Shown in pieces: positions 6,392 through 19,055 of a DNA stretch of 60,533 nucleotides (within the stretch, counting starts at the first letter, position 1; every line of letters starts with the position of its first letter). The stretch covers positions 1 through 60,533 of the forward strand of contig CAMDCV010000026.1 of the NCBI GenBank assembly GCA_945890645.1, in the 5' to 3' direction. Both the position numbers and the translations under genes were made by a program. This DNA is from Akkermansia muciniphila. GTDB lineage: Bacteria; Verrucomicrobiota; Verrucomicrobiia; Verrucomicrobiales; Akkermansiaceae. Below the pieces are notes generated by a model. That model had not been told where the DNA came from, ran no database searches, and worked only from the letters and a program-made list of their open reading frames with translations.

Positions 6392-6772
6392 TTACTCTCG
6401 CAAGACTTTTCCGCCTAGGGAAAGGATTCTGGCATTGCCTTTCGCGGATTCTGCTTCGGCGATTTGGCCATCGCGGACATACATTTGCGAGAGCGCTGTC
6501 CAAGCTAACAAATCGTTAGGACGCAGTGTCGTGGCTTGGAGGCCGCATCCGATGGCTTCTTTGGTATGTCCGAGCTTTAACAAAGACATACCAAGGGCGT
6601 GCCAGGCATCAAAAAAATCGGGATCGAGAGCGACGCATGCGCGATAGAGTGCCACGGCCTCTTCGAGCTCGCCGACGGCTAGATGGCCGTTGGCGTCGTC
6701 GAATAGTTGATCACAGTCGGGCACGAGAGTAGTTTTACTGCGAGACCGTAGCGTTCGCATTTTGCTGGGCAA
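6392..6772 (-). CDS. Small tetratricopeptide-repeat protein
   Basis: A 126-residue protein without signal peptide. Residues about 20-110 form TPR helices: FDDANGHLAVGELEEAVALY, ACVALDPDFFDAWHALGMSL, LKLGHTKEAIGCGLQATTLR, PNDLLAWTALSQMYVRDGQI. TPRs act as protein-protein interaction scaffolds. The start (6772, or Met at 6760) overlaps the end of the upstream SurA/PpiD-like gene by 26-38 bases, indicating translational coupling and a shared operon. The partner may therefore be the envelope chaperone or its clients; this is inference from context only. Confidence 0.75.
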   Translation of the reverse strand: MPSKMRTLRSRSKTTLVPDCDQLFDDANGHLAVGELEEAVALYRACVALDPDFFDAWHALGMSLLKLGHTKEAIGCGLQATTLRPNDLLAWTALSQMYVRDGQIAEAESAKGNARILSLGGKVLRE

Positions 6773-8366
6773 GCCATGCTTGGAAGCTGAGCACGCGCAT
6801 CTGATTTTGGTATTGGCTCACACCACCCATCAACATGCTGTCAAAATTCGGATCCTTCACGATTTCGCGTTTGTCCACGATGGCAAGCATCGCTCCGTCA
6901 TCGGTGGTGATGATGTCCGTCAAACTACCTGGGCTAACATATTGCGCAGCAGTGAACAGTGCTGGCGCATTGCTGTGTCCGGTAGGCTCTTCTCCGCGTG
7001 CGAGAGCGCTGACACTCTTTGTTTCGTATCCAGCTTCTTTCGCAGCATCGGCAAACGACTTACCGGCCTTGACGGCTTCTTCGATTTTTGTCTTAGCTGC
7101 TTCAGACGCTACTTTGAGAGCTTCGCGTGCTTTTTCGTCAATCCATTGCTTCGCCACTTCCTCTTTCGCTTCTTCAAATGTTTTGTCGCGTGATGCTTCC
7201 TCCGCGTCGAGACGGGCAATCATCCAGTCTGCTTCACCAATCGCGACGCTATCCGTGAACTTGGAAACCGGGTCAGTGGTGACCTTCAGAGTAAACAAGA
7301 TCTGCGTGAGAGTTTTCGTCGTTTTCCGCAGGTTGAGTGCGAGCATTTCTTCGGGCACGGTCGTTTCGGTGAAAAACTCTGTCGAGCGCAGTTCCCAACC
7401 TAGTTTTTTCACTTCATTTTCAAATTCCGCGCCTTTGCTGTCATCGATATCAGAGAGCAAGTCGTTCATCTTCGCGGCGGCATCGAGTTCCGCCTTACGA
7501 CGTTTTTCCATGATGGCTTTATCGGCAGCGGAAGGTTCTGGCACAGGGTCACCTTCTTTGGCCGCCTTTGGTGGCTCGGGGGCTTTGAGGGCATCATCAG
7601 GATAGGTAGGCTTACCAACCACGAAGGTAAACTTGCGGCGCACTTCGGTTTTGTATTTGTCTTTGCGCAAATCCCAATACTGCTTGAGTTCGTCGTCTGT
7701 GGGCTTTTCTTTGGCTTTGAAATTCTCCAAAGAAACCGTGAGATACGTGGCAGAAACTTTCTGCACCATTGCTTGATACGAACGCTTGACGTCTTCCGGA
7801 TTGACATTGATAGACCCACCGAGCAGCGCGGATAGCTTCTCGTAGATGAGGAAATCCTGCACCAAGCTGATGACATCGGCCTCGCTCATCCCCTCTTTGC
7901 CAAGGGCATTTTTGATGAAATTCGTGTAGCCTTCTTGATTGAATTTTTTGATCGATGGATTGGTGGGATCGGTCTCGGTGAAGACGGAGCGCTCACGGAT
8001 AAATTTCTGAATCTCCTCATCGCCCGGCTGAATGCCAAACTCACGTCCCGCCTTCTGCAAGAGGAGACGATTGACAAAAAAGCTTTTATCCATCGCATCT
8101 TCGGAATCGGTTTTGGAATCGGTCAATGCCGAAGCAAAACCATACAAGTCCATCGATTGGTATGAAACCAGTTGCATGGCGAGACCGCGTGAGCTTGGCC
8201 CGAGGCGACGGTATTCATTGATGTCATAGCTGACATTATTCACCGAGATACTGTTCGCGCCAGAAGAGCGGAAAAACTGTTGTGAGTCCATGAGCAGGAA
8301 GCCAATGAAGACAGCAACGAGTGCGGCGATGATGACACCTGGGTATTTGCGAAGATTTTCGATCAT
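6735..8366 (-). CDS. SurA/PpiD-like membrane-anchored periplasmic chaperone
   Basis: About 543 residues from ATG 8366 (MIENLRKYPGVIIAALVAVFIG), giving one N-terminal transmembrane helix as in PpiD; the frame upstream to 8435 is not needed. Then comes a SurA-N-type helical region (FFVNRLLLQKAGREFGIQPG, EEIQKFIREREVF-type helix, LIYEKLSALLGGSINVNPED). A long helical middle follows with a Pro-rich insert, and a C-terminal region with FADAAKEAGYETKSVSALAR and TTDDGAMLAIVDKREIV, like the C-terminal part of PpiD. A canonical PPIC parvulin core is not obvious to me. Probable role: folding and quality control of exported proteins, in keeping with the many exported proteins here. The TPR gene follows and overlaps. 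Confidence 0.75.
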   Translation of the reverse strand: MIENLRKYPGVIIAALVAVFIGFLLMDSQQFFRSSGANSISVNNVSYDINEYRRLGPSSRGLAMQLVSYQSMDLYGFASALTDSKTDSEDAMDKSFFVNRLLLQKAGREFGIQPGDEEIQKFIRERSVFTETDPTNPSIKKFNQEGYTNFIKNALGKEGMSEADVISLVQDFLIYEKLSALLGGSINVNPEDVKRSYQAMVQKVSATYLTVSLENFKAKEKPTDDELKQYWDLRKDKYKTEVRRKFTFVVGKPTYPDDALKAPEPPKAAKEGDPVPEPSAADKAIMEKRRKAELDAAAKMNDLLSDIDDSKGAEFENEVKKLGWELRSTEFFTETTVPEEMLALNLRKTTKTLTQILFTLKVTTDPVSKFTDSVAIGEADWMIARLDAEEASRDKTFEEAKEEVAKQWIDEKAREALKVASEAAKTKIEEAVKAGKSFADAAKEAGYETKSVSALARGEEPTGHSNAPALFTAAQYVSPGSLTDIITTDDGAMLAIVDKREIVKDPNFDSMLMGGVSQYQNQMRVLSFQAWLAQQNANATVSQ

Positions 8367-8562
8367 GATGGGTAGAAATGAAAAGGCCGCTAGCGACCGG
8401 GCGGGAAGTAAATCTGTTGTTGCCGGGTATCGCAACCATAATTGCGGGGGAAATCGATAGTTTTTTTCGGTGAGTAAAAATATTTTGCCCTAATATTCTA
8501 AGGTTTACCCGCGTGGTGTGTCTGTTACTCTGTAGGCCTATGGATTTCCCACTTTACTCGCC

Positions 8563-9144
8563 ATGGAACAGATATTGCCATCCCCCACTTCCCGCATCGC
8601 TCTCGCGGCAGGTGCGCCAGACCATCGACTGATGATGACCGAGGAACGCCCCAGTCTGAGAGCCTTGTTCGATTCGGAAGAATCGGCACTGCTGCGCTTT
8701 GCCTATGGCATCGTCGGACAACGGGAAACGGCGGAGGACCTCGTGCAGGAGGCATTTCTGCGACTCCACGAGCACTGGCAAGAAGTGCAACATCCGAAGG
8801 CGTGGCTGTATCGGTCCATCCGCAACATGGCACTCAATCACCTGCGCGACCACCGCCGCGAGACGGCCATGAGCGAAGGCAGCGACTGGGCCAGCGACGC
8901 ACCGACAGCGGCAGAAACTCTCGGACGCAGCGAAGCGGTCGGCGTGCTACGGATGCTGATGGCAGAGATGTCAGCGCAAGACCAGCAACTCATTTTATGG
9001 AAATACAACGGCAGTCTCTCCTACGACGAGATTAGCAAACGCACGGGGCTCACGGTGAGCAATGTCGGCTACAAACTCCACCATTTACTCAAATCCCTGG
9101 CCGATTCGATGCGTCGCATGGGCGTGGAAACCAAGGAAGGATAA
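8563..9144 (+). CDS. ECF-type sigma-70 family RNA polymerase sigma factor
   Basis: A 193-residue sigma factor. Region 2 covers about 30-95 (LFDSEESALLRFAYGIVGQR, AEDLVQEAFLRLHEHW, AWLYRSIRNMALNHLRDHRR), with the conserved EDLVQEAFLRL helix that binds the polymerase clamp. Region 4 covers about 125-185, with the helix-turn-helix SYDEISKRTGLTVSNVGYKLHHLLKSL. Spacing and length fit an extracytoplasmic-function sigma factor. ATG at 8563 gives 23 extra residues; a second candidate, ATG-ATG at 8632-8635, would start MMTEERPSLRALF, closer to the usual length. It ends one base before the frame of the next gene, whose N-terminus resembles anti-sigma proteins, so the pair probably forms a sigma/anti-sigma switch. 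Confidence 0.9.
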   Translation: MEQILPSPTSRIALAAGAPDHRLMMTEERPSLRALFDSEESALLRFAYGIVGQRETAEDLVQEAFLRLHEHWQEVQHPKAWLYRSIRNMALNHLRDHRRETAMSEGSDWASDAPTAAETLGRSEAVGVLRMLMAEMSAQDQQLILWKYNGSLSYDEISKRTGLTVSNVGYKLHHLLKSLADSMRRMGVETKEG

Positions 9145-9159
9145 TTGACACGGAACACA

Positions 9160-12100
9160 ATGAACGAAGAACCACATCACTTGACCCCTGTCGGCGACGA
9201 AGCCCTGGAAGCCCGCATCATTGCGTGGGTTCTCGGCGAGGCATCGCCCTTTGAGGCAGCGGAGTTGGAAAACATCTGCGAGCAAACCCCCGAATGGCGG
9301 GTCTTTCAGCGTCGCATGCTAGCAACTCACGAATTGCTCGGCGAGGCGACGACTCGCGGCGCGGCAGAAGATTGGAAAATGCCTAGCGAGAAACGCGGCA
9401 AGCTCGATGCGCTCATTGGGGCGGTGGAGGTGGTTGAGGAAAAACCGCAGCGCAAGCCGCAGCCATGGTGGCATCGTATGGCTGGATTAGCGGCAGTCTT
9501 AGCGATCGTGGCTATCATAGGGAGTTCCGTGACGGGCAAACTCGGCAAAGTGAGCAAAGATATCGTGGCTGTTCATGAGGCAAAGGCACCATCGCAGCTC
9601 AAAGGTAATCTAGAAATAATCGGCGGTAGTAAGTTCGAAATTCCATTGTCCGAATTGGACGCGCCCGTCCCCTTTCCTGTCACTCCCGCCACTCCAGTAT
9701 CCCCCGATGAAAATGGTTATTTACCAGCCCGATTGCCAAACGCGGTTGGTAGCGATGAGAGAAGTGCCGCTGCCGCTGGCTCAGACGATCCATTTGCCCC
9801 AGCCGAAGGTCTGGCATCCGGTGGCGAAGGTGATGAAAGAAACATGCAAGTTGAAGGAGATCCTTTCTCGGCACCCGAACCGCAAGGCTCTGTTGGAGCG
9901 GCTTCCAATGTGGATGCGTTTGCCACAGGTGTCGCCAGTGCAGAAGTCGCGGATGTGCCCGCTGATCCATTTTCTGATGGCAGCCAACCTGCAGGAGCAG
10001 CTTTGCGGTATCGCGGCGCTCCCGCGAAAGAAGAAGCAACTCGTTTAGCGGAGGGGGATCGTGTGCCCATGCTGGATGAAATCCCGCAGGTAGGCAGTTT
10101 ATTTCGTGAAAAACCATCCGCTCCAGCTGCTCCTGCATCGGCCAAAGCACAAGCGATTCCTGGTGCTCAAAGTGGAGTTGCCCCGCAAGAGCAGTTAATG
10201 ACCTACGCAAAAAATTTAGAATACGGTGAAGCAGGTGGTTTCCTGCCGGAAGAAAAAAAAGCCAGAGAACTGGCACTATCCGACTCGTCTGCAGTTTCTA
10301 AGATGCAACTTGGCGCACAAGATTATGGAAGTGTTGATGCCTTTAGCTCTGGTGCTGGTGGGGATTCGTCAATTTCAGATGATCCAATACGTTCCAATCC
10401 TGCAATCGTTTATGAAGAAGCCGAAACGGTGGATCGAGTACGCCGCACCCTCTACAAAGGCGAAGGACAATATAATTTAGGTAAATTGGATGACGCCAAG
10501 CGTGAATTTGAAGGAATCTTGCAGATCGACCCCGACAACAAAGCCGCGCGCCGCTGGCTGGAACGCGTCGATCAATCAAACGCTGACTATTACAGATCCT
10601 CCTATGACCATACTCGTGCGCAACTTCTTACGGATGTTGACAAGGCATGGGAGCTCGCAATCCCGGCTGAGAAAAGTAAAGAAGTTGACCCTTTAGCGAG
10701 TGAGCTATCACCTGCTTCCGATCCTTCATCTTTTGCTAAAGACGCGGATCAACGAAGCTATGCCTGGTGGAGTGGAGCGGAAAATCAAAAAGCAACGATT
10801 ACGAGTGGAGCCCCAGTGATTATCGACGGGATTAAAGCAACTGCAGATAAAGATATTCTCCAAGAAGTGGATGAAGAACAAACGAAGGCTTTGAAAGAAA
10901 TTCAGGAAATCGATGCCGTTCTCAATACACCGAATCTGCGGGATCTTTCTGCGAAAAAAGCCCCCCTCTCCCTCCCCGAAATTTTTGCCTCACAAGAACC
11001 CTACTCGACCTTCTCCCTGCGTGTCAGTGATAACGCCTTCCGCATTGCCCAGGCGGCGATGGCGCAAAACCAACGCCCAGCCGCTGAGTCGGTGCGCGTG
11101 GAGGAATTTTACAACGCCTTCGACTACGGCGATCCAGTGCCAACCGCGCAGGAACCCGTCGCAGCATCGATGGAACAAGCCGCGCATCCGATTTTGCCAC
11201 AACGCAATCTCCTGCGCATCGGCCTGCGCACCGCTGCCGCGGGTCGTGGTGCGGGTCAGCCCTTGCATCTGACTTTGCTGGTCGATCAATCGGGCTCGAT
11301 GAGTCGTGGGGATCGCAGTGATGCCTTGCTCGCTTCGGTGAAAGAACTCAGCACTTTATTGAATGCACAGGATCAGATTTCGGTGATCGGCTTTTCCCGC
11401 ACACCGCGATTGTTGGCAGAAAAAGTGCCGGGCGATCAACACGCACGACTCATTGAACTGCTTGCTCGCACCCCCAGCGATGGCGGCACGAATTTGGAAG
11501 AGGCACTGAAACTCGGTGAAGTGGTGGCGAAACGCAATCACTTGGCTGGTGCGCAAAATCGTTTGCTCTTGCTCACCGATGGCGCCGCAAATCTCGGCAA
11601 CGCCGATCCCGATCGTCTCGCGGCCTGGGTCAAGACGCTGCGTCAACAAAACATCGCCTTCGACATCGCCGGCATCGGCACCGATGGGCTCAATGATCCT
11701 CTGCTGGTGGAAATCGCTCGCAATGGCAATGGTCGTTATTATGTGATGAACGATGCCAAGCAAGCCAAGCAACAGTTTGCCGCGCAGCTCGCTGGTGCTT
11801 TCCGTCCCGCAGCGGAGAACGTGAAAGTGCAGGTGCAATTCAATCCGCAACGCGTGGGCAAGTATCAGCTCATCGGCTTTGAAAAAGACCGCCTGCGCAC
11901 GGAAGATTTCCGCAATGATAAAGTCGATGCCGCCGAGATGGCCGCAGCCGAAGCCGGACAGGCCCTCTATCAGATCGAGCTGTTGCCCGAGGGCACAGGC
12001 GATGTCGGCGAGGTCTCGGTGCGTTTCCGCGATGTCGCCACGCAGCAGATGGTCGAGCGCAAGTGGACGATCCGCTACGATCCCACCACGCCCGCGTTCG

Positions 12101-12291
12101 ACCAAGCCACGCCGACGATGCAACTCGCTGGACTCGCAATGCTCAGCGCCCAGAAACTGCAAGGCGGAGCCGCCGCACCGATGATCCGCTTCTCGGAAAT
12201 GCAAGAGCCACTACGCAATGTGCGCGATGAATTTTCCTCGAACAAACGCGTCGGCGAATTGTTAGAGATGATCCAGAAACTGAACGATTGA
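9160..12291 (+). CDS. Membrane protein with anti-sigma-like N-terminus, VWA and YfbK-C (DUF3520-like) domains
   Basis: 1043 residues from ATG 9160; a TTG at 9145 is less likely. Residues 1-~95 (ALEARIIAWVLGEASPFEAA, then ENICEQTPEWRVFQRRMLAT) resemble the helical domain of YfbK-like proteins and anti-sigma factors. One transmembrane helix is at about 107-126. A low-complexity Pro/Ala/Asp linker follows, with repeated DPF and PxAPE-type segments. A TPR-like helix pair (GQYNLGKLDDAKREFEGILQ) is at about 430-465. A VWA-N segment (SLRVSDNAFRIAQAAMAQNQ, VRVEEFYNAFDYGDPVP) starts at about 610. The VWA domain has the MIDAS motif DQSGSMS at about 709 and TDGAANLG further on. A YfbK-C domain ends the protein. 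Directly downstream of the ECF sigma gene; the next gene starts 5 bases after its stop. Confidence 0.85.
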   Translation: MNEEPHHLTPVGDEALEARIIAWVLGEASPFEAAELENICEQTPEWRVFQRRMLATHELLGEATTRGAAEDWKMPSEKRGKLDALIGAVEVVEEKPQRKPQPWWHRMAGLAAVLAIVAIIGSSVTGKLGKVSKDIVAVHEAKAPSQLKGNLEIIGGSKFEIPLSELDAPVPFPVTPATPVSPDENGYLPARLPNAVGSDERSAAAAGSDDPFAPAEGLASGGEGDERNMQVEGDPFSAPEPQGSVGAASNVDAFATGVASAEVADVPADPFSDGSQPAGAALRYRGAPAKEEATRLAEGDRVPMLDEIPQVGSLFREKPSAPAAPASAKAQAIPGAQSGVAPQEQLMTYAKNLEYGEAGGFLPEEKKARELALSDSSAVSKMQLGAQDYGSVDAFSSGAGGDSSISDDPIRSNPAIVYEEAETVDRVRRTLYKGEGQYNLGKLDDAKREFEGILQIDPDNKAARRWLERVDQSNADYYRSSYDHTRAQLLTDVDKAWELAIPAEKSKEVDPLASELSPASDPSSFAKDADQRSYAWWSGAENQKATITSGAPVIIDGIKATADKDILQEVDEEQTKALKEIQEIDAVLNTPNLRDLSAKKAPLSLPEIFASQEPYSTFSLRVSDNAFRIAQAAMAQNQRPAAESVRVEEFYNAFDYGDPVPTAQEPVAASMEQAAHPILPQRNLLRIGLRTAAAGRGAGQPLHLTLLVDQSGSMSRGDRSDALLASVKELSTLLNAQDQISVIGFSRTPRLLAEKVPGDQHARLIELLARTPSDGGTNLEEALKLGEVVAKRNHLAGAQNRLLLLTDGAANLGNADPDRLAAWVKTLRQQNIAFDIAGIGTDGLNDPLLVEIARNGNGRYYVMNDAKQAKQQFAAQLAGAFRPAAENVKVQVQFNPQRVGKYQLIGFEKDRLRTEDFRNDKVDAAEMAAAEAGQALYQIELLPEGTGDVGEVSVRFRDVATQQMVERKWTIRYDPTTPAFDQATPTMQLAGLAMLSAQKLQGGAAAPMIRFSEMQEPLRNVRDEFSSNKRVGELLEMIQKLND

Positions 12292-12296
12292 TTTTT

Positions 12297-15200
12297 ATGA
12301 AGAAGAACCTGTTACAAAAAATCGCCCTGTCACTGGCATGCCTGTTCTCGATGGCGAGTGCCCAAGAGATGCGCGAAGGCGTGATGGTGGTGCCCATTGA
12401 AAAAACGCAAAAACCGGTGCCGACGTTTTTTTCCGCTGCCGTGGAACTGAATGCCAAACGTTTTTTTGATCGCATTGAGACCTTGGCCAGCATCCGCTAT
12501 GATCTGCATCAAGGCTTGGGCGAACGCATGAGTCTATCGCTGAAGGGCGAAGGTGAAATCACCGAAGTCAGCGGCGAGGGACTGATGGATTGGTCACTGC
12601 GTCGCGATGCCGAGGGCAATCGTTTCCTCGATGTGCGAGTCAAACAAGGCGAAGTTCCGCAAAAACAATGGACCGTTATAGTGCGCACGCGCCTCGCACT
12701 CACCACCGCCATGAAGACCTGCGAGCTATGGATGCCGGGGCAGGGCGATGCGGTGGGTTTCACGACACAAGTCGCACTGCTCGAAGATGGCATGAAACAG
12801 GCCCGCGTGATCGAGGTCGAAGGCTTGTCGCCGGTGGAGGATTCGAAGGGCTTACGATTTGTCGGCTCGGGGCGGCCACGACTGCGTCTTGATCTCAGTC
12901 AAAGCGAGGGCGAGGTATCGTTTCGCGATAGCCAACTGGAGGGAACGGTGTCTGCCGATCAGCGTTCGGTGGCATTTGTGTTTCGTGCCATGGCACAAGT
13001 CAAACGTGCAGGTGCAACGATGGAATTTTGTCGTGGTGCCGTCGCGCTCAGCGATGTCAGCGCGGGCGATGGCTGGCACATGAACTTGCGCGCAGAAGGT
13101 GAAACCTATATCTATGATTGGATCGGTGATCGCGAGGGCGATGTGCCGGTCGAAATCCGCTTCGATGTGCCTGTGACGCACATGGGCGACTGGCGTTTGT
13201 TAGATTTTGCGATTCCTGCGGGAGTAGTAGTGCCACTGTGGTTGCAGGGCTTGCCCGCCGCAGTGCAGTTCGATGCGCAAAAGCCCGTAGTCCCAGCCCT
13301 GCAGGGCGACAAATGGCGCGGCTTTTTACCTGCCGATGGGCGAGCGTTGTTAGGCTGGCGCGCAGGCCGCGAAGTCGCTGATGGCGCCTTGTTTTTCTCC
13401 AGCACAGAAATCACTGACCTGCGCGTGGGCAGCGGATTGTTGCGACAGTTTAGCCAAATCGACATGCGCATTTTGCAAGGCAAGTTGCCGTCTTTAGTCA
13501 TCCAACTGCATGGCACGGGTGAAGTGCTATCGGTGCAGGGCGAGCAAGTCGTCGGCTGGTCGGTGAGCGAAGCTGATGGCAAGCGACTCCTTTCCCTGCA
13601 ACTGAATCGTGCGATGGAAGGCACGGGACGCATCATGATCGAGTCGCAAGCACCGCTCGGAGATTTTCCTTTAAAAGCCACAGGACTGCGCTTTGAACCT
13701 ACTGGCTCTCTGCGGCACAGCGGTTGGCTGCGCATCGCGAATGAAGGCGCGGTAAAGATCGAAGTGGCCTCATCGAGCGGATTAATCCAACTCGCGCCAG
13801 AACAATTTCCGATAGAAAATAAAAACTTACGCCAAGCATTCGTCTATCGCTTTCCTGCGGCAGAGTATGCCTATCAAGTCGGTGCCGATCACGTGCTGCC
13901 CGAAACTTCGGTGAACGAATTGACCATTTACGAACTCGCGGAAACCGACCGAAGGATCATTGCCGATATCGAGATCGACATCCGCGAAGCTCCTCTGCGT
14001 GAGTGGGAAATTCTCGTGCCGGAGGACTACACGGTCGTTTCCTGCACCGGCGCGTCCGTGGCGGATTATGCTCTCGCTACGACAGCCACGGACGGTCGTC
14101 GTTCGCTGAAAATCATCTTTCGCGAAGCAGTGAAGGATAGACAGTTGATCCAGCTGCGCTTGGAAAAAAACGAAGCGGCTAAGGCTGGTCCATGGGTGCT
14201 CACTCCCCTGCGTTTTCCCAGTGTGAAGTCGCATCGCGGCTTCATCGGTGTGGTCGCAGCGGCGGGCTATCGGATGAGCAGCGGCGAGCGCACGCATCTC
14301 ACGGAAGTGCCGCTTTCCTATTTTCCGAAACAAAGCGCCGGACTGCAACAAGCCTATCGCATCAAAGAGTCCGCCTGGGCCGCGACGATGAATGCAGAAG
14401 CACTCGGACAAAGTATTCAAGCCGATGTGTTTCACTTGTATTCTGTCAAAGAAGGCGCGGTCTATGGCTCGGTGTTGTTCAATTATTTTGTCGTAGGTGC
14501 GCCATCGAGCGAGTGGCGTGTGCAGATCCCCGAAGCCATCGGAAACATCGAAATTACCGGACAAAACATCGGCCATGAATGGCGTCGTGAAGGCAATGTG
14601 TTAGTGATTCCTTTGTCGCGTCCCCTGCTCGGTGCCGGCACGATGTTGTTGAGCTTCGAGCAACCGATACAAGCCGCCGGTGGTGAAATTTTTCCCGGTG
14701 AAATTCGTCCGCTTAATGTGCAAGCCGAAAGCGGCTACGTGCAAGTCGTCAGTCCGCTGCAAGTGGATTTTGAAGTGACGGCAAACAGCGGCAACGTGCT
14801 ACCTTTGCAAGCAAATGAACTGCCTGCCGACTACCGAGTGCTCAGTTCAGCGCCGACACTTTCCGCCTGGCAATACACCGCGCGTGATTTTTCGATTGGC
14901 CTCACATTCAAGTGGTTCAAGACCGGTGAAACAGTTGAGCAAGTAGTGGACTTCGTGAAGATCGCGAGTCAGGTATCGCGCGATGGACAACTGGTGACCG
15001 AAGCGAAGTTTTTCGTGAAGTCGAAACGTCGCGAGGCATTGCGTATGACATTGCCAGAGGGTGCGATTTTGTTAGAAACGAAAGTCAATGACATCACGGC
15101 GAATCCCCGCGTGGACAAAGGCGAAATCGTCATCCCATTGCCACAGAAAAACGATCTCAATCAAGCCGTGGAAGTGCTGCTGCGTTATGGCACGGCGGCG

Positions 15201-18200
15201 GCGAAGGGCAAGCGTGTCACCTTGCAAGCACCGGTCCTGCAAGCCCCGACCGTCATCGGCGAATGGACTGTCACTGGCGATGAAGGACAAGTGTTGACAC
15301 CACTCGGAGGCACTGTGGAAGTAGTACGTATGCCCTTGTGGGAAGATGGATTTCAGTGGCTCTCCCGTCATGCGAGTATGACTTTGTTGTTCGCGCTATT
15401 GATCGCAGTGGCTTGGTTGCTTTCGGGCAGGCCTACCTTATCGGGCACTTTATTGTTAGGCTCATCGGCGATGGCTGGTGTATTGGCGATCAGCAGTGTA
15501 AAACTGTTTAACGTTAATCCGACGATGCTCGAATACGCGGCACCCGTGGTGAAAGCAGGCGCGCAGATGGCGGTGGAGATCAACAATGCTTCCTTGTGGT
15601 CATCGGCGTTGAGTCGCGCCTTTTGGATCGGGCTGGGGCTGGGAGTGATTGTGTTAGGGCGCGGTTGGTTCATGCGCGACAAGTGGTGGCTCGGCTGCGG
15701 TGCCGTGATGGTCGCAGTGGGTCTGCTATCGATCCGCAATGGCACGCCGATCTTTTTCGGAGTGGCGGCACTGCTTTTATTCGTCATGGCGATTGTGCGT
15801 TTTCGCACTTCCACGGTGCGCACGATCCCACCGATCGCGGCCACTGCTGCGATGCTAGCACTTGCCATTCTGTTAGGGTCGCCGACAGCTCAAGCACAAG
15901 AATTATTGCGGGAAAAAACGGCAGAGCGCATGGTCTATGATTGCCAAATCAAACAGCAGCGTTTGTTCGGATCAGCAGAAGTAACAGTGCGTGCCGAGGC
16001 GGGTGATCGTTTTGGATTTCTGCAAGCGCCTGCGGTGCTGGGAGAATTTTCCGGCGAGGGCTTGCGCGTGATGCGCGAAATGCGCGGCGATCAAGCGGTG
16101 TATGTGATCGTCGCCGATCAAGCAGGGCTTTTCACTGCCAATGCGAAATTTGAAATGCCCCTGCCGCAATCTCAACAAGCATGGATTTTGCCCACCTCGC
16201 TCGCCGCCGTGCGCAAGCTGACACTGCGCTGGGATCAGGGCGGATGGGAGTTTGCTTCGAGTGCCGCCGCGCGCATCGAGCCGATGATGAACCCCGGCAA
16301 CAAAGAAAGTGGCGCGACCTTGTGGCTCAAGCCCGTGGCGAAAGTCGAGATCGTGCCACAAGCGCGCCAACGCGATTTGACGAACGAGCCCTCAGTGTTT
16401 TTTGTCGAATCATCGCAGTTGATGATTCCCTTGCCGGGTGTGGTCAATGGCCGTCATTCATTGCTCGTGCGTCCTTCGCAAGGTCAGGTAACGGAATTGT
16501 TGATGCGTGTGCCGCCTGGCTTTACAGTCAGCGATGTGACCGACGGACCCACCGGTGTGTGGCGTTTTGATCCTAACAAATCCGAGCTGCGCGTGGCGAT
16601 CGAACCTGCACAGAAGAAAGCATTTTCTCTCGCTGTGCATACGCAACGCGGCACGGCGGCATTGCCTGTGGAGATGAATTTGGAACCACTGCGCGTGCTT
16701 GGAGCGGCGGGTGAAGTAGGATTGCTCGCACTGGCTTTCGGCGAAGATGCACAACCGGAAAAAATCACCGTTAAAGGTTTGGCACCGGTGAATCCTGATG
16801 ACTTCGATGGCAGATTATTGCCACGCGATTCGAAAGGCAATGCTTTAGCGACCTTGCAACAAGTCTATCGCTTCGGTGGAGCAGAAGCTTCGCTGCAAGC
16901 ACGCATCACCCCCGTGGCGGCAGAAATGCGCGCGGAAACATGGCAGGTACTATCGCTTGGAGATGACCGCATGGTGCTATCGGCAGACCTAGCGGTATCG
17001 ATCACTCGTGCAGGAATGTTCCGTTTGTTGTTAGAGATTCCCAAGGGCTTGGAAATTGAAAGCGCCTCGGGTGACGCGTTAAGCCACTGGACTGAAGCGG
17101 AAACCGATGGCGTGCGTGTGATGACTTTGCATTTGAACGGCCGCACCATGGGACGTCAGCAATTTCACCTCAGCTTCACTGGACCCGCCACCGGCGCGCA
17201 AAAGAAATGGCAAGTGCCGCGTCTGATGCTGCGCGAAGCAACCCGCGAGTCAGGCATTCTCACCATCGTGCCGGAACAAGGCATGCGCATCGGCGTTGTC
17301 GATCGTGAGCATGTTTCACCGATGGATCCCCGCGATTTATCCGACGCTCCACAAGCCCACGCTAAAGCCGCGATGCGACTGGGCGCACTGGCATTCCGAC
17401 TGCTGCAAAAAGATTGGCGTCTCAGTCTATCCATCGATGAACTCGAGCCATGGGTCACCGCGCAAGTGTTTCACGAAGTCGTGTTGCGCGAAGGGCAACT
17501 CAGCACAAAAATGGGCCTCGTCTATCAGATCGAAAATGCCGCGATCAAGACCCTGCGCGTGCGTTTGCCCGGCCTCAATGATGTCACCGCCGGCACCGTG
17601 CGTGCCACCGGTCCGAGCGTCGCCGACTTTTTAAAAGTCGAGGGCGAGACAGATGTGTGGGAAATCCGATTCCAACGCGGCGTCTCCGGCAGCACCGCAG
17701 TCAATCTCGAATTCCAACAACAACTCCCCGAAGGCACCAGCGATAAGATCGAACCGATTCGTTTGTTAGAGGCGCGGCAAGTGAGTTACTTCGCGGCGAT
17801 TCGTTCGGGAGGTCGTATGGAACTGAGTGTCGATGCCACTCTCCCTGAAGGCTGGCTCCTCAACGACTGGGCGGCCATCCAGTCCGCGATGCCAAAATTG
17901 CGCAATGTCGTTTCTCCAGCGCTGTCGTTTAAAGTCACCAACCCGCAGAACCCTCTGACGATCAATTTCCAACGCCACCAGCTCGCCGACATCCAAAAAA
18001 TGAGAGTCGCCGATGGCACCCTAACGACACTAATTTCCTCGCGCGGTGAAGCTCTCACGGCAGTGAATTTGCAAGTGCAAGTCGCTGAAAAAGGAACACT
18101 GCGCCTGCGTTTACCAAAGGGCGCCGAACTCTACAACGTGCTCGTCAACGACGAAGGAGCCTCGCTGGTGCGTGAGGGCGATGAGTGGTTGTTCTATGTT

Positions 18201-19055
18201 TTCCCTGCCGCCGATTCGAAAAAACCTGCCACGGTGCGTTTCGTTTATGCCTCTGCCGCAGGTAGTAAAATGGAACTCGAAGGACCGTCGCTCAGCGTGC
18301 CGATGGAGAATCTCACATGGCGCGTACTTATCCCTGAAGGCTGGCGCTTGCACGATCACGAAGGCGATTTCGATCTCAAGCAACAAAGCAAAATGGGGGC
18401 TTTCCGCTTGGAAAACTATCAAGACTTTGTCACGGCTCGCAAGGAATCGAGCTCTGCCGAAGCCGTGGCCTTGTTCGATCAAGCCAGCAACTGGATCAAT
18501 CAGGGCGATCAGGAAAAAGCTTCCATTGCCTTAGGCAATGCCTCGCGCAATGGACTGCTCGATGAAGCATCGAACGAAGATGCCCGCGTGCAACTGCGGG
18601 AACTGCGCACGCAACAAGCCGTGCTCGGCCTCAACACACGCCGCCAAAAAATCTTCCTCGATAACAAATCACAATCGGGAGCGGATAACCAACAACTCGA
18701 ACAAGCCGCGCAAGTCAACCCGTTGCTGCAAGGAAAATTCAATTACGACCCGAAACAATTTGATCGCTTCATCGAAGGCAACACCGCCGACGAAAATGCC
18801 GCGCTGCAAGCCATCGCCCAACGCATCGTCAACCAACAGCTCGCCGCCGAACCAGCACCATCTGGCCTTGAAATTAGCGTGCCCGAACGTGGATCGATGC
18901 TCACCTTCGGACGCAGCATCCAAGTGGACGGCGGTAAACCGATGCACCTGCAACTGAAACTAGAGCGCGAACAAAAAAACCGCTATGGCTTGGCTTTGCT
19001 TGTTTGTGCTTTACTCGCAGCAGTTGCGTTCGCACCACTACGGAGAAAAAATTGA
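12297..19055 (+). CDS. Giant exported multi-pass membrane protein, unknown function (2252 aa)
   Basis: ATG at 12297 gives a signal peptide (MKKNLLQKIALSLACLFSMA, SA|QE). Two long beta-rich exported halves flank a cluster of about six transmembrane helices at residues ~1025-1200. The last of these helices ends SPTAQAQE, itself like a signal-peptide cleavage site. The C-terminus has one more helix (YGLALLVCALLAAVAFAPLRRKN). Segments recur in both halves: VFHLYSVKEGAVYGS / VFHEVVLREGQLSTK, and LRMTLPEGAILLETKVND / LRLRLPKGAELYNVLVND, each followed by comparable strands. This suggests an ancestral duplication or fusion. I recognise no named domain. It shares an operon with the sigma factor and the VWA protein, so an envelope signalling or assembly role is inferred. 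Confidence 0.8.
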   Translation: MKKNLLQKIALSLACLFSMASAQEMREGVMVVPIEKTQKPVPTFFSAAVELNAKRFFDRIETLASIRYDLHQGLGERMSLSLKGEGEITEVSGEGLMDWSLRRDAEGNRFLDVRVKQGEVPQKQWTVIVRTRLALTTAMKTCELWMPGQGDAVGFTTQVALLEDGMKQARVIEVEGLSPVEDSKGLRFVGSGRPRLRLDLSQSEGEVSFRDSQLEGTVSADQRSVAFVFRAMAQVKRAGATMEFCRGAVALSDVSAGDGWHMNLRAEGETYIYDWIGDREGDVPVEIRFDVPVTHMGDWRLLDFAIPAGVVVPLWLQGLPAAVQFDAQKPVVPALQGDKWRGFLPADGRALLGWRAGREVADGALFFSSTEITDLRVGSGLLRQFSQIDMRILQGKLPSLVIQLHGTGEVLSVQGEQVVGWSVSEADGKRLLSLQLNRAMEGTGRIMIESQAPLGDFPLKATGLRFEPTGSLRHSGWLRIANEGAVKIEVASSSGLIQLAPEQFPIENKNLRQAFVYRFPAAEYAYQVGADHVLPETSVNELTIYELAETDRRIIADIEIDIREAPLREWEILVPEDYTVVSCTGASVADYALATTATDGRRSLKIIFREAVKDRQLIQLRLEKNEAAKAGPWVLTPLRFPSVKSHRGFIGVVAAAGYRMSSGERTHLTEVPLSYFPKQSAGLQQAYRIKESAWAATMNAEALGQSIQADVFHLYSVKEGAVYGSVLFNYFVVGAPSSEWRVQIPEAIGNIEITGQNIGHEWRREGNVLVIPLSRPLLGAGTMLLSFEQPIQAAGGEIFPGEIRPLNVQAESGYVQVVSPLQVDFEVTANSGNVLPLQANELPADYRVLSSAPTLSAWQYTARDFSIGLTFKWFKTGETVEQVVDFVKIASQVSRDGQLVTEAKFFVKSKRREALRMTLPEGAILLETKVNDITANPRVDKGEIVIPLPQKNDLNQAVEVLLRYGTAAAKGKRVTLQAPVLQAPTVIGEWTVTGDEGQVLTPLGGTVEVVRMPLWEDGFQWLSRHASMTLLFALLIAVAWLLSGRPTLSGTLLLGSSAMAGVLAISSVKLFNVNPTMLEYAAPVVKAGAQMAVEINNASLWSSALSRAFWIGLGLGVIVLGRGWFMRDKWWLGCGAVMVAVGLLSIRNGTPIFFGVAALLLFVMAIVRFRTSTVRTIPPIAATAAMLALAILLGSPTAQAQELLREKTAERMVYDCQIKQQRLFGSAEVTVRAEAGDRFGFLQAPAVLGEFSGEGLRVMREMRGDQAVYVIVADQAGLFTANAKFEMPLPQSQQAWILPTSLAAVRKLTLRWDQGGWEFASSAAARIEPMMNPGNKESGATLWLKPVAKVEIVPQARQRDLTNEPSVFFVESSQLMIPLPGVVNGRHSLLVRPSQGQVTELLMRVPPGFTVSDVTDGPTGVWRFDPNKSELRVAIEPAQKKAFSLAVHTQRGTAALPVEMNLEPLRVLGAAGEVGLLALAFGEDAQPEKITVKGLAPVNPDDFDGRLLPRDSKGNALATLQQVYRFGGAEASLQARITPVAAEMRAETWQVLSLGDDRMVLSADLAVSITRAGMFRLLLEIPKGLEIESASGDALSHWTEAETDGVRVMTLHLNGRTMGRQQFHLSFTGPATGAQKKWQVPRLMLREATRESGILTIVPEQGMRIGVVDREHVSPMDPRDLSDAPQAHAKAAMRLGALAFRLLQKDWRLSLSIDELEPWVTAQVFHEVVLREGQLSTKMGLVYQIENAAIKTLRVRLPGLNDVTAGTVRATGPSVADFLKVEGETDVWEIRFQRGVSGSTAVNLEFQQQLPEGTSDKIEPIRLLEARQVSYFAAIRSGGRMELSVDATLPEGWLLNDWAAIQSAMPKLRNVVSPALSFKVTNPQNPLTINFQRHQLADIQKMRVADGTLTTLISSRGEALTAVNLQVQVAEKGTLRLRLPKGAELYNVLVNDEGASLVREGDEWLFYVFPAADSKKPATVRFVYASAAGSKMELEGPSLSVPMENLTWRVLIPEGWRLHDHEGDFDLKQQSKMGAFRLENYQDFVTARKESSSAEAVALFDQASNWINQGDQEKASIALGNASRNGLLDEASNEDARVQLRELRTQQAVLGLNTRRQKIFLDNKSQSGADNQQLEQAAQVNPLLQGKFNYDPKQFDRFIEGNTADENAALQAIAQRIVNQQLAAEPAPSGLEISVPERGSMLTFGRSIQVDGGKPMHLQLKLEREQKNRYGLALLVCALLAAVAFAPLRRKN

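Follow-up and report, generated by a model that had tools for sequence, protein, structure and literature searches.

A conserved ECF sigma factor, VWA/YfbK membrane protein and giant membrane protein in Akkermansia muciniphila: a candidate envelope signalling operon with a mosaic linker

Introduction

Extracytoplasmic function (ECF) pathways are a principal means by which bacteria sense their envelope, and VWA/YfbK proteins are, to our knowledge, without a settled function. Here we analysed a locus that links the two across the phylum Verrucomicrobiota and makes YfbK function directly testable. It lies on a 60,533-nucleotide stretch of Akkermansia muciniphila DNA (assembly GCA_945890645.1, contig CAMDCV010000026.1; hereafter the window), which is a complete contig (C26) of a 3.8-Mb genome (G000). 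Three genes in a row encode an ECF sigma factor, a VWA/YfbK membrane protein with a putative anti-sigma domain, and a giant membrane protein. We read the locus as an autoregulated envelope signalling operon composed of a membrane anti-sigma factor with a mosaic linker, its ECF sigma factor and a giant partner, and give this reading a probability of roughly 0.7.

Parts of this layout resemble described systems. FecI/FecR/TonB-dependent transducer systems have an anti-sigma factor, as is proposed here; unlike them, the triad (sigma, VWA and giant genes in that order on one strand) has no recurring neighbour gene, and no FecR family reached its cut-off in the scanned protein parts, a scan that did not extend to receptor genes in the rest of the genome. 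By its predicted domains (PF12450, VWA and PF12034) the 1043-residue window protein is a YfbK family member, with PF12034 matched over 59 of 184 positions only, which sets it apart from the described family. It shares the domain order vWF_A, VWA, YfbK_C with Escherichia coli YfbK but differs in its additional N-terminal domain with a membrane helix and in the sigma gene that precedes it.

As in the RseA, RskA and RsiW-type pairs covered in PMC7406223, the sigma gene directly precedes a gene for an N-terminal domain of anti-sigma type followed by one helix, and zinc and non-zinc forms occur within one family; the same source notes that class I domains with and without zinc are intermixed even inside groups. 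Unlike those pairs, the locus has a periplasmic part of about 900 residues with a mosaic linker and a VWA-YfbK head, and adds a third, giant operon member. PMC12204202 describes inner-membrane vWA proteins, proposed as force transducers and present in Verrucomicrobia among others, that consist of a helix, a disordered linker and a YfbK-like vWA head; their genes lie beside tolQ/tolR-like motor genes, a TPR gene is also described, and an SHLS motif in the helix is given for many of them but not all. The window protein differs from these in the anti-sigma-type domain before its helix. About 100 of its linker residues (403–507) are shared with the Amuc_1098-type secretin (NF042912; E 3.6e-38), in contrast to that family as a fragment only, with 131 bits against the full-length family cut-off of 750.

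Gene order and conservation

The putative operon comprises the following features:
8496..8523, + strand: putative ECF promoter of the operon, TTCTAAGG-N14-GTGTCT (conservation before sigma genes)
8563..9144, + strand: ECF sigma factor, 193 amino acids (aa), regions 2 and 4 (Pfam, NCBIfam, AlphaFold domains)
9160..12291, + strand: putative membrane anti-sigma/VWA-YfbK protein, 1043 aa (frame open from a TTG at 9145)
12297..19055, + strand: giant membrane protein, 2252 aa (frame open from a TTG at 12288)

The three + strand open reading frames (ORFs; 8563–9144, 9145/9160–12291 and 12288/12297–19055) are as tightly packed as the initial annotation had described; the choice of start codon sets the sigma/VWA gap to 0 or 15 bases and the VWA/giant gap to -4 or 5 bases. 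Among 288 genomes of the phylum, the giant was matched in 58, counting the window's own; the 20 giant-less genomes listed all belong to genus g2 of the same family, and 210 others also had no match. We fetched 50 stretches from 49 of the 57 other giant-positive genomes, leaving out eight (G086, G106, G197, G213, G245, G263, G278 and G284), and set aside six distant loci with a split giant (L076–L081) and a second stretch from G172 (L082) before counting 43 loci. A contig search with a one-sequence query gave nine further close loci, hereafter the named loci, from genome bins labelled Akkermansia, Akkermansiaceae, Luteolibacter, Prosthecobacter, Verrucomicrobiae or Verrucomicrobiales.

The triad was present in 33 of the 43 fetched loci with a full-size giant, and all three genes were found in 8/9 named loci. 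The arrangement is not due to chance, since these 33 loci come from other genomes and keep both gene order and strand. The sigma gene directly precedes the VWA gene on the same strand in all 33 triads, with a 4-base overlap in 15. Four further loci (L041, L047, L066 and L068) had the VWA and giant genes, with the sigma position beyond the DNA covered, and upstream DNA was too short for a judgement in L046 and L061. Among the named loci, the stretch of L125 begins too late to reveal a sigma gene and the giant of L122 is split across two frames. Around the triad, any further gene family reached at most 4 of the 43 loci. The triad is real and conserved, a putative variant of the ECF/class I anti-sigma kind, and the prediction that its genes would be conserved together in relatives held. 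The open-access literature yielded no description of the three-gene combination among the matches listed, in agreement with the initial annotation, which had considered the pairing with a giant partner undescribed.

The pairing of a sigma factor with a VWA/YfbK protein is not peculiar to the locus, which corrects the initial reading. We found 32 YfbK places in the phylum and fetched 20; the other 12 comprised seven triad members, one second pair of the window's genome and four left out (G023 contig 30, G088, G114 and G086). An ECF sigma gene lay directly upstream of 19 of the 20 fetched YfbK genes, with close or overlapping open frames. Another such pair occurs in the window's own genome, on contig 35 (L181:829-3556), where an ECF sigma gene precedes the gene of a full YfbK-type membrane protein. 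Given these pairs, an ECF sigma factor with a YfbK-type membrane protein is a general module of the phylum, and it is the giant that marks the variant described here.

Sigma factor and promoter

The 193-aa protein matched Sigma70_r2 (PF04542, 1.4e-16), Sigma70_r4_2 (PF08281, 1.1e-09) and TIGR02937 (NCBIfam), all above cut-off, and with sigma70 regions 2 and 4 only and a length of about 190 aa it is an ECF sigma factor. In an AlphaFold model its sigma2 and sigma4 domains singly match solved sigma structures at 1.6–3.0 Å.

A promoter had been anticipated upstream of 8563, and a conserved promoter-like element was found there, at 8496–8523. The pattern TTCYAAGR-N14-GTGTCT is common to the window and five relatives at -61 to -67 of the sigma gene. 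It occurs with 0 mismatches in L034–L038 (-61 to -65) and also near the L039 sigma gene. All eight further loci outside the derivation set carried it at -53 to -78, with 0 mismatches in one, 1 in five and 2 in two, and 2000 shuffled 300-base sequences contained no site at ≤1 mismatch. Across nine genomes, 7/8 perfect sites precede sigma genes, six of these seven coming from the set that gave the pattern or was found with it; the eighth lies inside an ORF of the window's genome. The conservation of this element before the sigma gene suggests that the operon is autoregulated in the window's lineage.

VWA/YfbK protein and anti-sigma domain

The conserved parts of the second protein are listed below:
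9160..9444, + strand: putative anti-sigma domain, residues 1–95, without zinc ligands here (position shared with the zf-HC2/HxxxCxxC domains of orthologues)
9478..9534, + strand: single transmembrane helix, residues 107–125 (hydropathy)
10987..11217, + strand: vWF_A (PF12450) domain (Pfam, above cut-off)
11269..11775, + strand: VWA domain with the MIDAS motif DQSGSMS at 11284–11304, residues 709–715 (Pfam, above cut-off)
11803..11979, + strand: YfbK_C match (PF12034, positions 4–62 of 184; Pfam, above cut-off)

Comparisons used 48 VWA rows: the window, 38 from the fetched loci (two from L055) and nine from the named loci, with L047, L066 and L068 truncated at the start. DxSGSM was present in 48/48 rows, and both the MIDAS-bearing VWA domain and the YfbK-C domain predicted at the outset were recovered, the latter as a partial match. 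Half of the rows (24/48) have HxxxCxxC ahead of the membrane helix. Of the 38 proteins from the fetched loci, 30 had their N-terminal parts scanned with Pfam, which placed zf-HC2 above cut-off in 16 (L043, L045, L048–L057, L059, L060, L062 and L063, with L058 under cut-off). Since the window protein and its nearest relatives lack HxxxCxxC, its anti-sigma reading rests on orthology. The VWA/YfbK protein is therefore best described as a putative class I anti-sigma factor; the initial annotation's helix stands, as does, by orthology, the domain it placed before the helix, without a Pfam match of the domain's own. An AlphaFold model read through from the sigma factor into this N-terminus (predicted local distance difference test, pLDDT, 83; predicted template modelling score, pTM, 0.62) predicts three helices there (model residues 213–223, 229–241 and 243–264).

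Proposed signalling mechanism

In the mechanism that we favour, the cytoplasmic N-terminal domain of the VWA protein would hold the ECF sigma factor, as orthology and gene order imply. A single helix would span the inner membrane, and the VWA-YfbK head would sit on a long linker in the periplasm. Conserved synteny makes the giant, presumably anchored by its central helix cluster and C-terminal helix, the likeliest contact of this head. A periplasmic change could then reach the anti-sigma domain through the helix, by pulling or by cleavage, and free the sigma factor, which would transcribe its own operon from the element at 8496–8523; conservation of the element is observed, and its use is what we infer. 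The linker is a fast-changing mosaic that has taken up pieces of the host's envelope machines more than once, best seen for the secretin; most plausibly it would serve as a spacer or as an arm for interactions, perhaps adjusted to the machines concerned.

Several observations weigh against this signalling operon. Four giant-bearing loci (L067, L069, L070 and L073) have upstream DNA with neither a VWA nor a sigma gene before the giant; L067 has a sigma gene further away on the opposite strand, and G114, one of these four giant-only genomes, has a YfbK gene on a separate contig. The N-terminus of the window VWA protein has neither zinc ligands nor a Pfam anti-sigma match, and zf-HC2 was found in none of the 10 nearest fetched orthologues. 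The modelled arrangement of sigma2 and sigma4 deviates by 13–16 Å from the AlgU-MucA, SigW-RsiW and SigmaE-RseA chains, taken over both sigma domains with the known complexes aligned at full length, a placement compatible with binding as well as with none. As for the promoter-like element, the same-genus locus L033 carries it only in a 2-mismatch form, and at ≤3 mismatches it was absent from the searched stretch in 22/34 rows, nearly all distant (L040, among these, has a 1-mismatch form further in). Nor did a wider regulon appear: the nine genomes contain 37 sites at ≤1 mismatch, sigma promoters included, against 25 for a reversed-pattern control. Nine such sites were inspected, and those of L102, L112 and L113 lie shortly upstream of ORFs with signal-peptide-like starts.

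Mosaic linker

Between helix and head, the window protein carries:
9535..10959, + strand: hypervariable linker, residues 126–600 (identity comparison with nine relatives)
10063..10104, + strand: secretin-signature-like peptide VPMLDEIPQVGSLF, residues 302–315 (Pfam Secretin, E 0.2)
10366..10680, + strand: type IV pilus secretin piece, residues 403–507 (NF042912, own-genome and sister secretins)

Identity to nine relatives is 12–23% in residues 131–402, against 49–67% in residues 1–95 and 55–89% in residues 601–875. The TPR-like stretch of the linker in the initial annotation was correctly placed and wrongly identified, being a piece of an Amuc_1098-type pilus secretin. This piece is 62% identical to the secretin of its own genome over 103 residues (65% in a second comparison) and 52–72% identical to the secretins compared, with the best value (72%) for the secretin of a sister species; because this identity extends outside the TPR motif, a generic TPR identity for residues 403–507 was rejected. 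Peptides resembling VPMLDEIPQVGSLF occur under the Pfam cut-off in L053 (4.4e-05), L125 (1e-04), L122 (0.0014) and L118 (0.0021).

A profile of 23 secretins, retained by a length filter from the 26 secretin loci L126–L151 (L130 among them possibly in a wrong frame, at length 986 against an open frame of 913), found secretin pieces in 18/48 linkers, the window's included, at an independent E value (i-E) <0.01 with Z = 1000. Composition does not account for these matches, as each of 20 shuffled sets gave 0/48. The same profile weakly matched 2/48 giant rows, near their tails. The secretin matches of L212, L215 and L216 cover the TPR region only, may be generic TPR and were not counted. We found no report of secretin pieces in anti-sigma factors in the open-access literature, among the matches listed. 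A further protein of the window's genome, a 2263-residue frame on contig 31 (L183:2055-8843) that looks alpha-2-macroglobulin-like by eye, matches secretin model positions 242–461 with 172 bits.

The secretin pieces do not share a single origin, and most of them resemble a secretin of their own genome or genus best. They are out of secretin order in L035, L036, L041, L047 and L125, and close relatives differ, with a piece in L120 and none at threshold in L117 and L033. Identity to the secretin of the own genome is 84% in L035, 75% in L036, 69% in L038 and 67% in L040. Among the secretins compared, the own-genome one gave the top score for the L035, L036 and L038 pieces; the L036 value (75% over 134 residues) ties with the L035 piece (75% over 84), and the L040 piece is equally close to its own secretin and to the one encoded in the window's genome. 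Six pieces that cover one secretin region form no single clade: their tree has six label changes, its well-supported branches force at least 2, most forks fall under the strict support mark, and a single ancestral capture for all pieces was rejected because 0/200 bootstrap trees contained such a clade. In pairwise comparison, the nonsynonymous distance (dN) is 0.11–0.32 and the synonymous distance (dS) 1.4 to saturated, with donor and copy branches mixed; for both the tree and dN/dS, the match decided which reading frame was used. The pattern may fit repeated capture as well as gene conversion.

Other parts of the linkers resemble other envelope proteins. Donors were traced for six proteins, each against its own genome and without a matched control set of other linkers, and the names Wzc, Wza, pseudopilin and toroid were assigned by eye from motifs unless Pfam is cited. 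The G240 VWA protein matches a Wzc-like protein at 66% over 285 residues, a secretin at 51% over 239 and a membrane-anchored toroid protein at 57% over 70, and that of G277 matches a secretin at 53% over 446 residues and a toroid protein at 66% over 72. In G221 (L052) the helix region weakly matches several own-genome proteins (E 1.5e-05 to 0.007), five of which (E 1.5e-05 to 0.005) were read and have the pseudopilin start FTLIELL; a pseudopilin-like helix exit is present in 15/48 rows (16 pattern matches, one unrelated by eye). The G012 VWA protein contains an autotransporter-type repeat (Pfam PATR, 5.5e-12) and, over a short stretch, resembles an exported protein of 261 residues. In the linker of a second YfbK protein of G240 (L182:6167-8452), one piece is Wza-like (66%) and another Wzc-like (58%); the two donors lie ≤2.5 kb apart on another contig, the matched stretch of the Wza-like donor containing one stop codon. 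The L054 linker has weak matches to STN (2.3e-05) and FecR_C (0.031), both below cut-off. The YfbK linker of L217:1987-3900 contains AEKDEGY...GTPTRIGG, by eye like the plug start of TonB-dependent receptors; AEKDxGY was found in 0/48 triad-type VWA rows.

Alternative readings of the linker

It would be unusual for a sensor to have an arm built in part from pieces of the export machinery of its own cell, and the readings diverge over what this means. With a little under an even chance, in our estimate, the linker need only be long, exported and soluble; recombination would exchange it for any exported sequence available, and its content would have no signalling meaning. Its very low conservation, the scrambled order of the secretin pieces and the several unrelated donor families favour this neutral account. 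The pieces nevertheless keep their frame and much of their amino-acid sequence, although dN/dS includes the donor branch, and donors were traced for six proteins only, without control linkers. If neutral, the linker would be a clear case of rapid mosaic turnover between two conserved domains.

An unlikely alternative is that the anti-sigma arm acts as bait, imitating secretin, pseudopilin or capsule-export parts so as to bind the partners of those proteins or be handled like them, with faulty assembly of the machines then releasing the sigma factor. The Psp response takes mislocalised secretin as a sign of envelope stress, and the bait would explain why the pieces resemble the host's machines, although recombination within one genome would give the same pattern. 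It gains from the closeness of the L035, L036, L038 and L040 pieces to their own secretins, from the failure of the six pieces to form one clade, from a dN well below dS, from the pseudopilin-like helix exits together with the match of the L052 helix region to own-genome pseudopilins, and from a YfbK linker that has both a Wza-like and a Wzc-like piece. It loses from the 30/48 linkers that have no secretin piece at the threshold used, near relatives L117 and L033 among them, and from similar secretin pieces in other proteins such as the 2263-residue one of the window's genome. In addition, the window piece is nearer to the sister-species secretin (72%) than to its own (65%), the own-secretin closeness only ties for L036 and L040, and the toroid proteins, autotransporter-type repeats and small exported protein among the donors are no such machines. 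We regard as quite improbable the fuller form of this idea, in which the arm would be repeatedly re-copied from the host's secretin, pseudopilin helix and Wza/Wzc, and the ECF pathway with its giant would report the assembly of just those machines that the cell possesses. If functional, host secretin in the sensor arm would be a new way for a sensor to track its target.

Very improbable, finally, is a motor-driven force transducer of TonB/TolA type whose expression the sigma factor merely controls: the layout of helix, linker and vWA head with a YfbK-like fold is shared, Verrucomicrobia included (PMC12204202), but that family adjoins tolQ/tolR-like genes, of which there are none among the four scanned window neighbours, which belong to other families, or among the recurring neighbours of the 43 loci, where no neighbour recurs in relatives; the window helix MAGLAAVLAIVAIIGSSVT has neither the SHLS motif nor a His (a His two residues before the helix is not kept in L117), and in half of the orthologues the helix is preceded by an anti-sigma motif of the zinc-type class I form.

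Giant protein

The third gene product has the following parts:
12939..15320, + strand: N-terminal beta-domain array, residues 215–1008 (hhalign to the C-terminal array)
15372..15878, + strand: central transmembrane cluster, about residues 1026–1194 (hydropathy)
15939..18374, + strand: C-terminal beta-domain array, residues 1215–2026 (hhalign, AlphaFold)
18408..18848, + strand: helical TPR-like tail with the NEDARVQLRELRTQQAVLGL motif (pattern, AlphaFold, profile)
18984..19040, + strand: C-terminal transmembrane helix (hydropathy)

No Pfam family matched the giant above cut-off. Hydrophobic helices fall at residues 1026–1070, 1149–1194 and 2230–2248, with a marginal window at 301–319. The two arrays are paralogous (hhalign probability 100 over 778 columns) and each matches itself at offsets of about 170 residues, and the giant is, by this comparison, an internal duplication of tandem beta domains. 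The two beta-rich halves around a transmembrane cluster that were first proposed are thus supported by hhalign, by hydropathy and by a model of the C half. In that AlphaFold model (pLDDT 85, pTM 0.43) beta domains are followed by long helices (824–970) and the final membrane helix. Among the 50 best PDB rows of a fold search with the C half, OST1, integrin alpha and alpha-2-macroglobulin led, with template modelling scores (TM-scores) <0.3 on either side, and a viral structure library gave TM-scores <0.2. These fold matches probably reflect strings of beta sandwiches of a generic kind. By profile, the tail resembles designed TPR proteins, and its motif NEDARxQ was found in 15/35 giants by pattern and is the majority consensus in the alignment.

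Neighbouring genes and distant loci

The four scanned neighbours of the operon encode a SurA/rotamase-like protein, a TPR protein, an aminotransferase and a 3-keto-disaccharide hydrolase. The gene for the first of these, a periplasmic folding factor (6735–8435, - strand), runs divergently from the sigma gene and does not recur near the triad. By profile, no sigma or VWA gene lies near the giant-like genes of the six distant loci (L076–L081). In these loci two genes lie side by side, and one or both are weakly similar to the giant; the paired products measure about 1165–1236 and 1466–2578 aa and have a start motif like IYVPYEEL...VFLPYEEF.

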